64,000 nt of DNA from Paenibacillus sp. FSL K6-1330 (lineage in GTDB: Bacteria; Bacillota; Bacilli; Paenibacillales; Paenibacillaceae): assembly GCF_037976825.1 (NCBI RefSeq), contig NZ_CP150269.1, positions 207,001-271,000 on the forward strand. Reading direction: 5' to 3'. How positions within the stretch are numbered: the stretch's first letter is position 1; each line of letters begins with the position of its first letter. The translations under genes were made by a program, and so were the position numbers. Below the pieces are notes generated by a model. The model saw only the letters and a program-made list of their open reading frames with translations. It was not told the DNA's origin and made no database searches. Shown here piece by piece: positions 11,411 through 43,867 of this stretch.

Positions 11411-11706
11411 TTGTTTAGGTAAATGCCACCTTTTGGAAGGAATAACGGATCCTTGGTCCGGAAGTTTCCGGAAAACCGCCATTTTCCCTCAAATAAGGTA
11501 CTCTCGGTCCGTTAGCTCCACTAAAGCACCGTGCAGCCATCGCACGACCACCGCAGTCGACTCTAATTTTAATGCACATGCCATTATTAGCCGTATGATA
11601 ACCGGTTAGTCTCACCCTAACGGGCTATCCTGAAGGGTCGCTGGTTACTGCATGAATCTAGTCGACAGCCCTCCAAGCCTGCCCCGGACCACACACCGTG
11701 CGCACA

Positions 11707-11987
11707 GGGAGCAGTGAGCACAGGGAGCAGTACGCCAGGGAGCAGTACGCACACAGGGAGCAGTACGCACAGAGAGCAGTACACACAGGGAGCAGGACAG
11801 ACAGAGAGCAGTGAGCACAGGGAGCAGAACGCACAGAGAGCAGTGAGCACAGGGAGCAGTACGCCAGGGAGCAGAACGCACAGGGAACAGTACGCACAGA
11901 GAGCAGTACGCACACAAAGAGCAGAACGCACAGAGAGCAGTGAGCACAGGGAGCAGCGAGCACAGGGAGCAGAACGCCAGGGAGCAG
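11707..11987. repeat. 16-bp tandem repeat array (about 17.5 units)
   Basis: Seventeen complete units plus a partial one of the form GGGAGCAGTACGCACA; most are 16 bp, three are 15 and two are 18. Half-unit variants (TGAGC, TACGC, AACGC) alternate irregularly. Unit length is not a multiple of three and units differ in length, so a conserved encoded protein is unlikely although several frames stay open. Minisatellite-like. Confidence 0.9.
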
Positions 11988-21394: not shown

Positions 21395-21558
21395 GTTTTA
21401 TTGAAAAAGTTGTCCCCTCCAGTGAGAGTATCCCCGGAGGAGCAACGCGTTCGCCTTTGAAATCGGGAAACAACCTATCCATTCATTCCAGTTTCCTGAT
21501 TTCAACAGCGACCGAAGGGGATACTCTCACTCTCCCGAATTGAAGTTTTCAATAAATC
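21395..21558. repeat. Nested-hairpin repeat, copy A (reverse orientation)
   Basis: Conserved core in minus orientation (CGGTCGCTGTT ... GGCGAACGCGTTGCTCCTCC) relative to copies B and C at 30.1-30.6 kb. The arms AGTGAGAGTATCCCC and GGGGATACTCTCACT flank it exactly, and a further outer pair (TTTTATTGAAAAAGTT at about 21397, TTTTCAATAAAT ending 21557) extends the hairpin. Inner arms GAAATC(A/G)GGAAAC-type also pair. Whole structure about 160 bp. No protein gene is supported inside it. Confidence 0.8.
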
Positions 21559-21621: not shown

Positions 21622-22218
21622 TTATAAGCCTTGCGGCGGTGTATTCTCTAATACTTGATCGATCAGGCCATATTCTTTGGCTTCGTCGGCCGTCATGAAG
21701 TAGTCGCGATCGGTATCCTTCTCGATGCGCTCCAGCGGTTGGCCAGTGCGATCAGACAGGATGCGGTTCAGCTTGTCACGCATTTTGAGAATGCGGCGAG
21801 CACGGATCTCAATATCCGTAGCTTGACCCTGTGCGCCGCCGAGCGGCTGGTGAATCATAATCTCGCTGTTAGGCAGACCGTAACGTTTGCCTTTAGCGCC
21901 TGCGTTGAGCAGGAATGCACCCATAGAAGCAGCCATGCCGACACAGATCGTCGAAACGTCCGGCTTAATGAACTGCATCGTATCGAATATCGCCATACCT
22001 GCGGTAATGGAACCGCCAGGACTGTTGATGTAAAGATGAATATCCTTCTCAGGATCCTCAGCCGACAAGAACAGCATTTGGGCAATGATGGAATTGGCGA
22101 CCACGTCATTTACGTCGGAGCCGAGGAAGATAATGCGGTCTTTCAGCAATCTGGAATAGATGTCGTACGCCCGCTCACCGCGGTTGCTTTGTTCAACGAC
22201 CATAGGTATAAAACTCAC
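21622..22218 (-). CDS. clpP: ATP-dependent Clp protease proteolytic subunit ClpP
   Basis: Serine peptidase forming the 14-subunit barrel that degrades proteins fed by ClpC, ClpX or ClpE. The catalytic triad is exactly placed: Ser98 in GMAASMGAF, His123 in MIHQPLGG, Asp172 in DTDRDYF. 198 residues, normal. The start is GTG at 22218 ([19 protein letters not shown]), with AGAGGAGG about 8 bp upstream; it aligns with the usual ClpP N-terminus. A CtsR box overlaps the -35 of its promoter (22273-22312), so heat-shock and protein-stress control is expected. Monocistronic, with its own terminator. Confidence 0.97.
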
Positions 22219-22454: not shown

Positions 22455-22824
22455 ATAAGAAAAATGTCTATCGACGTACATTCAAAGAAGACAGACCGCG
22501 TTTAGCGGTAGTTTTTCTTGCGATATCAGGAAGCTGACTCCGCGAAGTTTATACTTTCTGATATCTAAAAAATTAGCAACGAAGTTGATTATACCGCATC
22601 TATTTCAAAAATACAATAGCAGACAAAACTTTGTTCCTATTATATAGACAAGCCTGTAGTTGGTCATAATGAATAAGAATGCTTGGGGTAGAGAAATATA
22701 CTTTCGGACACTTGCAACCGGCAGGATTATTGGTTAGAATAAGGGTGGGACTTAAAAAGTTCAACTGGGACATTTTACGACCAGGTAGAGGAGAGCCGAG
22801 ACGAAGTTTGCAGGAGTGGAATGC
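22455..22824 (+). other. Intergenic region before cggR
   Basis: About 370 bp without a gene. The first 250 bp are A/T-rich and show nothing recognisable; the right end holds the cggR promoter and operator (22712-22785). Confidence 0.6.
22712..22785 (+). promoter_or_regulatory. cggR-gapA promoter and CggR operator
   Basis: TTGCAA (22712), 17 bp, TAGAAT (22735-22740) is a sigma-A promoter. Just downstream TGGGAC occurs at 22746 and again at 22766, exactly 20 bp apart, each followed by an N6 spacer and a partly conserved tetrad. This is the architecture of the Bacillus CggR operator (CGGGACN6TGTCN4 twice), placed to block transcription from the promoter when fructose 1,6-bisphosphate is low. 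Confidence 0.85.
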
Positions 22825-28755: not shown

Positions 28756-30060
<1,305 letters not shown>

Positions 30061-30072
30061 TTGAAATAATAG

Positions 30073-30111
30073 AAAGCCCAGCTCCTGCTTTTGGGGGAGC
30101 TGGGCTTTTTT
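30073..30111 (+). terminator. Terminator of the glycolytic operon (T1)
   Basis: AAAGCCCAGCTCC pairs with GGGGAGCTGGGCTTTTTT. The same stem reappears in altered form at 30345-30383. Confidence 0.92.
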
Positions 30112-30144
30112 GCATTAACTTGAGGGATGTCTGGGGGAGGGAGT

Positions 30145-30315
30145 GGCTGCACACTCTGATATGGTGCTGTGGGACGGTGCGTATATCGGTTCCGGTCGCT
30201 GTTAAAATCGGGAAGCAGGAATGAAATAGGTTTAAGGAAGCTTCCCGATTTTAAAGGCGAACGCGTTGCTCCTCCACCCGATATACGCACCTGAGCAGGG
30301 GAGAGGTGTGCAGCC
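30145..30315 (+). repeat. Nested-hairpin repeat, copy B
   Basis: Outermost arms GGCTGCACAC (30145) and GTGTGCAGCC (ends 30315); middle arms GTGCGTATATCGG (30178) and CCGATATACGCAC (ends 30290); inner arms AAAATCGGGAAGC and GCTTCCCGATTTT. Between the arms lie the conserved CCGGTCGCTGTT and GGCGAACGCGTTGCTCCTCC blocks shared with copies A and C. Short reading frames across it are by-products of the repeat. Confidence 0.85.
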
Positions 30316-30344
30316 TCTTGGGGGCATCTCGTAGGAGTGCAAAG

Positions 30345-30383
30345 AAAGCCCAGCTCATGTTAGGTTACATGAGCTGGGCTTTT
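30345..30383 (+). terminator. Second terminator-like hairpin (T2)
   Basis: AAAGCCCAGCTCATGT pairs perfectly with ACATGAGCTGGGCTTT. The stem resembles T1; no gene lies between the two, so it is probably a duplicated terminator. Confidence 0.75.
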
Positions 30384-30439
30384 GAGTGTGGGAGGGGGAG
30401 AAAGGGAAGGGCGGCTCTCTGTTATCGTGACGTGGGGTC

Positions 30440-30554
30440 GTGCGAATATCGGCTCCGGTCGCTGTTAAACTCGGGAAGCAGGAATGAAATAGGTTTAAGG
30501 AAGCTTCCCGATTTTAAAGGCGAACGCGTTGCTCCTCCACCGATATTCGCACCT
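30440..30554 (+). repeat. Nested-hairpin repeat, copy C
   Basis: Arms GTGCGAATATCGG and CCGATATTCGCAC flank the same two conserved blocks. Relative to copy B one arm base changes T to A and its partner changes A to T, keeping the pair. The inner stem has one mismatch (AAACTCGGGAAGC against GCTTCCCGATTTT). T1-B and T2-C look like an old tandem duplication of terminator plus element. Confidence 0.85.
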
Positions 30555-30701
30555 GAGCGGGGAAGAGGTGTGGAGCTACCATGATACTCTAGTAGATCTA
30601 AACGCCTATCTTTTTTATAGTTCAAGTTTCCTATATTTGCCGTTATAATGATGAAGACGGAAGTTATAGGAAAAATACTACAAGTAAGGTGGCTTGAATC
30701 T

Positions 30702-43748: not shown

Positions 43749-43797
43749 GATTTAAGAGATAAGAAAGTATAGACATCCGAGGCTTAGCATCCTTATC

Positions 43798-43867
43798 TCG
43801 CAAGAAAAACTTCCGCTACATGCGGTCTGTCTACTGTGAAAGTACGTCGATCGACGTTTTTCTTATA
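43798..43867 (+). repeat. 70-bp structured repeat, unit 1
   Basis: Begins TCGCAAGAAAAAC and ends GTTTTTCTTATA, so its ends pair. A 3' hairpin CGTC-GATC-GACG precedes the T tract. Unit 2 at 43913 has the same length and layout. Confidence 0.7.

Follow-up and report, generated by a model that had tools for sequence, protein, structure and literature searches.

A probable family of IS630-type MITEs in Paenibacillus with a nested interior fold kept by compensatory changes

Introduction

The hairpins of bacterial MITEs are generally regarded as by-products of shrunken insertion sequences. The closest described system to the family reported here is RUP of Streptococcus pneumoniae, which the accessible part of its description presents as a small intergenic MITE of about 100 copies, with a TA target and with terminal repeats in common with an IS630 element, IS630-Spn1 being its proposed mover (PMC2229807); with RUP, an IS630 MITE that folds into a hairpin is already known as a kind. 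The same partial account presents the Correia and ERIC elements as small repeats that are mobile and form long stem-loops when transcribed, and for which RNA effects have been proposed; a covariation of their arms was not found described in that portion of it (PMC2229807). Among Firmicutes, bcr1 of the Bacillus cereus group is, in the excerpt available, a repeat of ∼150-170 bp whose fold is conserved and which has the traits of a mobile element. Finally, as far as the accessible part of the source goes, replication forks orient the insertions of Tn7 (through TnsE) and of IS608, the active strand of IS608 being the lagging-strand template (PMC5371812).

Here I describe a family of small repeats in Paenibacillus, three copies of which, labeled A, B and C, are found in the window, that is the whole 64-kb stretch of DNA that was analysed. 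I consider it likely that this is a family of IS630-type MITEs comparable to RUP, with a constrained nested fold inside. Likened to RUP by description only, and within what the accessible text offers, the present family differs in being about twice as long, in its covarying interior arms, and in an orientation that follows replication. Correia and ERIC, again likened by description only and from a partial text, are similar small mobile repeats with folding, but belong to other bacteria (PMC2229807), and bcr1, compared on the same footing, is specific to another group. I found no description of the family, of its covarying interior or of its orientation in the open-licence literature, which does not establish its absence from print. 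Since copies abound across the genus and come with empty sites, an IS630 element with similar ends and measurable covariation, it can be asked directly whether the fold is under selection, on which strand, and as which molecule. Each of three further points lends itself to a test of its own: the bias in orientation, the entry of IS110 into the core, and the long persistence of copies near eno and clpP.

Results and Discussion

Layout of the three copies in the window

The initial annotation of this DNA had described three elements sharing two internal blocks, one of them inverted relative to the others, with inner arms that differ from copy to copy and yet match their partners exactly. Direct reading of the sequence bears this out for A, B and C, with A as the inverted copy (Table 1). 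The outer arms had also been said to differ and still pair, which is the case in A and B, but not in C, where the pairing is poor. Compared to dinucleotide shuffles, the RNA fold z-scores are −4.53 for A and −3.70 for B, but only −1.07 for C, for which 32 of 200 shuffles fold equally well. A covariance model (hereafter referred to as R1) was applied to the genome, to its relatives and to the window; within the 64 kb of the latter it gave only A, B, C and reverse-strand shadows, and no fourth copy.

Copy B is located 3′ of an enolase-like ORF (28771-30060) and of the terminator-like hairpin of that ORF, and C is its tandem neighbour, at a spacing of 263 nt. A terminator-like hairpin, AGCTGGGCTTT, is found before each of B and C (window 30060-30130 and 30339-30385), and the tandem unit at this place seems to be a terminator plus an element.

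Table 1. Features of copies A, B and C in the window, and loci with an IS110 element in the core.
Feature	Position	Strand	Remarks
Copy A	21396..21556	+	Read from sequence; R1 match 21418-21532 on -, 118.2 bits; + strand reads GGAGGAGCAACGCGTTCGCC..CAACAGCGACCG
A, left neighbour	ending 21076	+	ORF
A, right neighbour	21622-22218	-	clpP-like ORF
A, inner arm P1 left	21422-21435	+	GTGAGAGTATCCCC
A, inner arm P1 right	21517-21530	+	GGGGATACTCTCAC, exact complement of left arm
A, conserved block	21436-21455	-	GGCGAACGCGTTGCTCCTCC
A, conserved block	21504-21514	-	CGGTCGCTGTT
A, outer arms	21396-21407 / 21546-21556		Paired
Copy B	30145..30315	+	Outer arm to outer arm; R1 match 30175-30294, 128.6 bits
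B, outer arms	30145-30157 / 30302-30315		Paired
B, inner arm P1 left	30176-30189	+	GGTGCGTATATCGG
B, partner of P1 left	30278-30291		CCGATATACGCACC
B, core	30193..30275	+	CGGTCGCTGTT, hairpin P2, GGCGAACGCGTTGCTCCTCC
B, blocks	30193-30203 / 30256-30275		CGGTCGCTGTT / GGCGAACGCGTTGCTCCTCC
Copy C	30438..30556	+	R1 match, 124.6 bits
C, inner arms	30440-30452 / 30540-30552		GTGCGAATATCGG / CCGATATTCGCAC, around core 30456-30538
C, blocks	30456-30466 / 30519-30538		CGGTCGCTGTT / GGCGAACGCGTTGCTCCTCC
IS110-in-core loci			L133, L134, L137, L444-L446

Copy number and taxonomic range

In the window's genome (G000), 46 matches to R1 reach E≤1, and 42 of them E≤0.01; of these 42, 41 are real and one is a reverse-strand shadow of B. 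The working set consists of 43 copies, two longer, weaker forward copies having been added, and includes two that are halves adjoining an IS110 element. A search of the same genome for the blocks, allowing 3 mismatches, identified seven places. Four of them (A, B, C and L005) are elements; the other three, L004, L006 and L007, are devoid of the second block and were left out. In some places two elements appear composite or collapsed into one (L118 against L056; L119), and similarity among copies can run into the flanks, as observed for L133 (1979-2404) and for the neighbours of L064, L130, L131, L125 and L141.

Under stricter filters, 47 of 60 relatives possess an R1 match at E≤0.01. All 37 same-genus genomes match, the window's own included, as do 10 of the 23 genomes from other families of the order. 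Of 149 genomes drawn from across the phylum, and scored on 24 candidates each, only four match at E≤1e-4; all four belong to the family of the window's genome, Paenibacillaceae. Of the 80 loci listed in a search of the named collection for the core pattern, 78 are titled Paenibacillus, one Gorillibacterium and one Fontibacillus. Several species have copies with arms of the eno type or of the clpP type, and the hairpins flanking them are similar as well; eno-type copies can follow each other in a row, up to four in G028. Between G000 and G070, which belong to the same species, most copies are orthologous. One absence was observed between these two (L119 versus L147, 254 nt versus 3 nt), but it is larger than the element and has no clean boundary.

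Covariation of the arms

The interior of the element is a nested fold, in which an outer repeat encloses the arm P1, an asymmetric internal loop and the hairpin P2; compensatory changes maintain this fold as the arm sequences drift. The covariation set consists of 26 aligned copies out of 28 extracted, with the structure hand-drawn on copy C. Both sides have changed in 24 of the 34 base pairs, and 7 pairs are invariant. The paired cells amount to 94.0%, versus 28.8-50.7% when the partner is slid by 1 to 3 columns, part of this excess being expected since the structure was drawn on C. None of 500 shuffles reached any of five covariation measures in the 26 copies, which alone is not proof, as related sequences can beat such shuffles; an independent set of 82 loci from the named collection, picked by core sequence alone, supports it. 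In these 82 loci, Watson-Crick cells in P2 number 860 of 984, versus 541 with shuffled partners, and P1 has 7.1 of 9 pairs, versus 5.1.

At one and the same place, compensation is smaller: double-change pairs number 5 of 35 in 16 eno-type sequences, and 3 of 35 in six of the clpP type. The check suggested in the initial annotation, with a covariance model and a covariation analysis, has yielded further copies with mostly compensated arms, and its proposal that selection keeps a folded structure is true at its core, with compensatory change found across loci and less of it at the same place.

Within P2, some mismatched steps are themselves conserved. A U.G step and a G.A step are invariant, being present in 26 of 26 copies. 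Next to the invariant steps, the first pair of the core varies: among 94 copies it is G-C in 76, C-G in 11, T-A in 6 and A.C in one. An A.C step at P2 position 6 recurs, in 42 of 94 and in 31 of 82 copies.

A mobile form in a relative, G048

The genome G048 has 114 R1 matches at E≤1e-5 (150 candidates scored). Its element is ∼210-215 bp long and is bounded by inverted repeats, TATARRNTGAACTT; this terminal repeat has 200 matches in G048 at ≤3 mismatches, versus 1 for the control. Across 88 G048 copies, located in 90 fetched loci, conservation fades at the inverted repeats CTATATARRNTGAACTTG. Both terminal repeats are present in 67 of the 88 G048 copies (shifted controls 0, 1 and 0 of 88), in 9 of 79 named loci (1/74, 0/70 and 0/64), and in 0 of 36 G000 copies (1, 0 and 0 of 36). 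Terminal repeats TATARRNTGAACT gave no match at ≤2 mismatches around A, B and C. Some G048 copies are internally deleted, by about 42 nt, 88 nt or 101 nt, and some contain an extra hairpin of ∼40 nt, which is also found in L135 of G000, and is missing from L112, its G070 orthologue. Unrelated G048 loci have their arms in common.

I then joined the flanks of five G048 copies without the element, and searched 61 genomes for the resulting empty sites. Junctions could be read at four of the five loci, L203 giving none. For both L187 and L224, the empty site is a single TA in G053, G030 and G026, and for L247 it is CA in G053 and G030; the occupied G048 sites have TA on both sides. At L256, a single TA is found in G053 and G027, and internally deleted copies are found in G030 and G026; this is not a simple recent insertion, but an older one, or one lost in places. 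Several G048 insertions (L262, L271, L281, L282 and others) adjoin sequence similar to TTGGAAAAAGGGAACTTATTTTTCC, which may be a further repeat that serves as a target.

An IS630 element with matching ends

Three identical copies of a 1.17-kb element of the IS630 family are also found in G048; their ends, TATAAGTTGAACTAAAGA and TATAGTTTGAACTAAAGA, lie next to TA. The frames of this element match NF033545, the second at 8.3e-42 and the other at 8e-28, the latter match being just below the cut-off. Relatives of the second frame are present in 25 of 100 genomes of the genus, many with stops, and in 12 of 20 fetched related IS loci, manual reading identified paired similar ends ∼1.1 kb apart. Over 20 bases, the TATAAGTTGAACTAAAGA end coincides with one end of L129, an element of the window's genome, and L115, the G070 orthologue of L129, has such ends on both sides. 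PF13358 (IS630) has no match in the window's genome, despite its about 41 copies, nor in G028.

Since ends and TA target are shared with this element, the family is probably of the IS630 MITE type. The suggestion in the initial annotation that it might be a mobile element is borne out in G048 by the empty sites, the TA target and the ends in common with the IS630 element. Because terminal repeats are rare outside G048, the link to IS630 is direct for G048 and some other copies, and for most copies is carried by the shared interior: a single model covers A, B, C and the mobile copies, with the same internal fold and the same core, as judged from the core letters. Sharing this interior but devoid of terminal repeats, A, B and C are apparently old, immobile relatives, tied to the family by their core, rather than intact MITEs.

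Folded strand and orientation

The two strands do not fold equally well: the better one is that complementary to CGGTCGCTGTT in 81 of 88 G048 copies, 26 of 36 G000 copies and 68 of 82 named loci. The fold difference between strands is −4.39 in G000, versus −0.74 in shuffles, and −4.88 versus −1.30 in G048 (30 of the 88 copies), with p-values that are overstated since the copies are related. The better strand is evenly split in eno-type copies (8/16), and is the same in 5 of 6 of the clpP type; B and C fold better on the opposite strand, and A equally on both. A wobble test for the folded strand was tried and rejected. In a first pass, A.C steps outnumbered G.T by 74 to 5 in P2 positions 0-12, with 15 to 14 in P1, and in the independent set P2 gave 54 to 17, but 23 to 15 without one conserved position, where shuffled partners lead one to expect 137 to 95; P1 in the independent set gave 24 to 37.

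With the origin assumed at coordinate 0 and the terminus at half length, copies whose CGGTCGCTGTT-complementary strand is codirectional with the leading strand number 78 of 91 in G048, 23 of 36 in G081, where the bias is weak, 21 of 23 in G026, and 34 of 43 in G000, the positions counted being 91 of 114, 36 of 45, 23 of 35 and 43, respectively. Copies of the mobile type have their better-folding strand on the lagging-strand template. B and C are exceptions to this rule of orientation.

I next considered transcription as the cause of this orientation. The better strand is codirectional with agreeing flanking genes by 44 to 7 in G048 and by 16 to 6 in G000, but when the copies are split by the direction of replication the counts do not favour transcription, which was therefore rejected. 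In this split, which covers 122 copies of G048 and G000 with gene calls by a custom script, orientation with replication exceeds orientation against it by 102 to 20. The counts are 59 to 9 for leading-strand gene pairs, 4 to 1 for lagging-strand pairs, 12 to 2 for convergent pairs, 5 to 1 for divergent pairs and 22 to 7 for unclear cases. Lagging, convergent and divergent pairs together give 21 to 4 (two-sided binomial ∼0.001, some copies being tandem neighbours). In these two genomes, orientation thus follows replication, with the origin and terminus assumed as above, and not the neighbouring genes.

An orientation that follows replication is a likeness to IS200/IS605 elements and to Tn7 TnsE, within the accessible part of the source (PMC5371812). 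The G048 copies differ from IS200/IS605 in their inverted terminal repeats and the TA on both sides. Elements of the IS200/IS605 or REP type are not known to carry inverted terminal repeats or to duplicate their target, and such an element is therefore ruled out here.

IS110 in the core

An IS110-family element (NF033542, 9.8e-56) sits between GATCGCTG and CTGTTG of the core, and does so at the same exact core base in two separate elements, one in G000 and one in G070. Two IS110-bearing copies in G000 are 99.7% identical, flank included, and represent one IS110 event. In the part of the report accessible, the IS110-family element IS621 uses a repeated palindrome, the REP sequences, as its site (PMC11208160). 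The present case is alike in that an IS110-family element is located in a repeated palindrome, but differs in that the site is the core of a MITE family. A fragment of an IS1182-like transposase, with a score under the cut-off, adjoins L133.

Proposed mechanism and alternatives

I propose that a small non-coding element, which starts and ends with TATARRNTGAACTT, would insert at TA and then have TA on both sides, as is the case in G048. Judging from the ends and the TA site, it would most likely be moved in trans by an IS630-family transposase with similar ends. Its fold would act when the better-folding strand is single, and may do so as DNA at the replication fork, helping insertion or persistence, which I regard as a serious, if tentative, possibility. 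That the fold has no role of its own seems rather unlikely. More unlikely still is that the strand-specific interior fold, as single-stranded DNA on the lagging-strand template, sets the orientation of the IS630-type MITE; I know of no replication-coupled route for a TA-targeting cut-and-paste family.

The fold may instead act as RNA in read-through transcripts, for instance in RNase III processing or 3′-end protection, along the lines suggested for Correia and ERIC, selection on the RNA keeping the arms paired even once the element is immobile. This is a possibility that I place after an action at the fork, and ahead of a fold without a role. Compensatory changes among copies staying at one place speak for it, as do the better folding of one strand, beyond that of shuffles, and the codirectionality of this strand with agreeing flanking genes (44/51 in G048, 16/22 in G000). 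However, orientation tracks replication where it could not be predicted from the genes, and is opposite to that of the gene pair in 4 of the 5 lagging-strand pairs; B lies past the terminator-like hairpin of eno; and the G.U excess is absent once composition is allowed for. Searches of Rfam, at curated and permissive thresholds, gave nothing relevant and no family match at the curated score, a permissive search of 30100-30620 returning two matches at chance level.

Mutation could also match the arms without any selection on a folded molecule, if template switching or conversion between arms during replication kept quasi-palindromes perfect. Palindromes are known substrates for both, and the changes are often exact in the two arms; such correction would however erase the invariant U.G and G.A steps of P2, as well as the recurring A.C at position 6, which argues against it and makes it improbable. 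Differing arms that match pairwise would likewise be expected of a mobile palindrome entering existing hairpins, with arms that are the host's, as the initial annotation had offered. For the loci read this is refuted, as the empty sites are bare TA or CA and unrelated G048 loci share arms, which belong to the element, though no empty site turned up for A, B or C; I give it hardly any credence. It is also very doubtful that the core is a passenger or target of IS110 or IS1182, and not part of the IS630 MITE. The single exact core place of IS110 in two separate elements and the IS1182-like fragment beside L133 would fit such an origin, but the ends and TA sites fit IS630, and IS110 splits the core, which must then have been there first.

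Other repeats in the window

Two further repeats were observed in the window. A 116-nt sequence is present at 22455-22570 and at 43751-43866, in inverted orientation and with 81% identity, and is possibly another small interspersed element. A degenerate tandem array, with a 16-nt, GCAGTACGCACAGAGA-like unit, spans 11669-11987.
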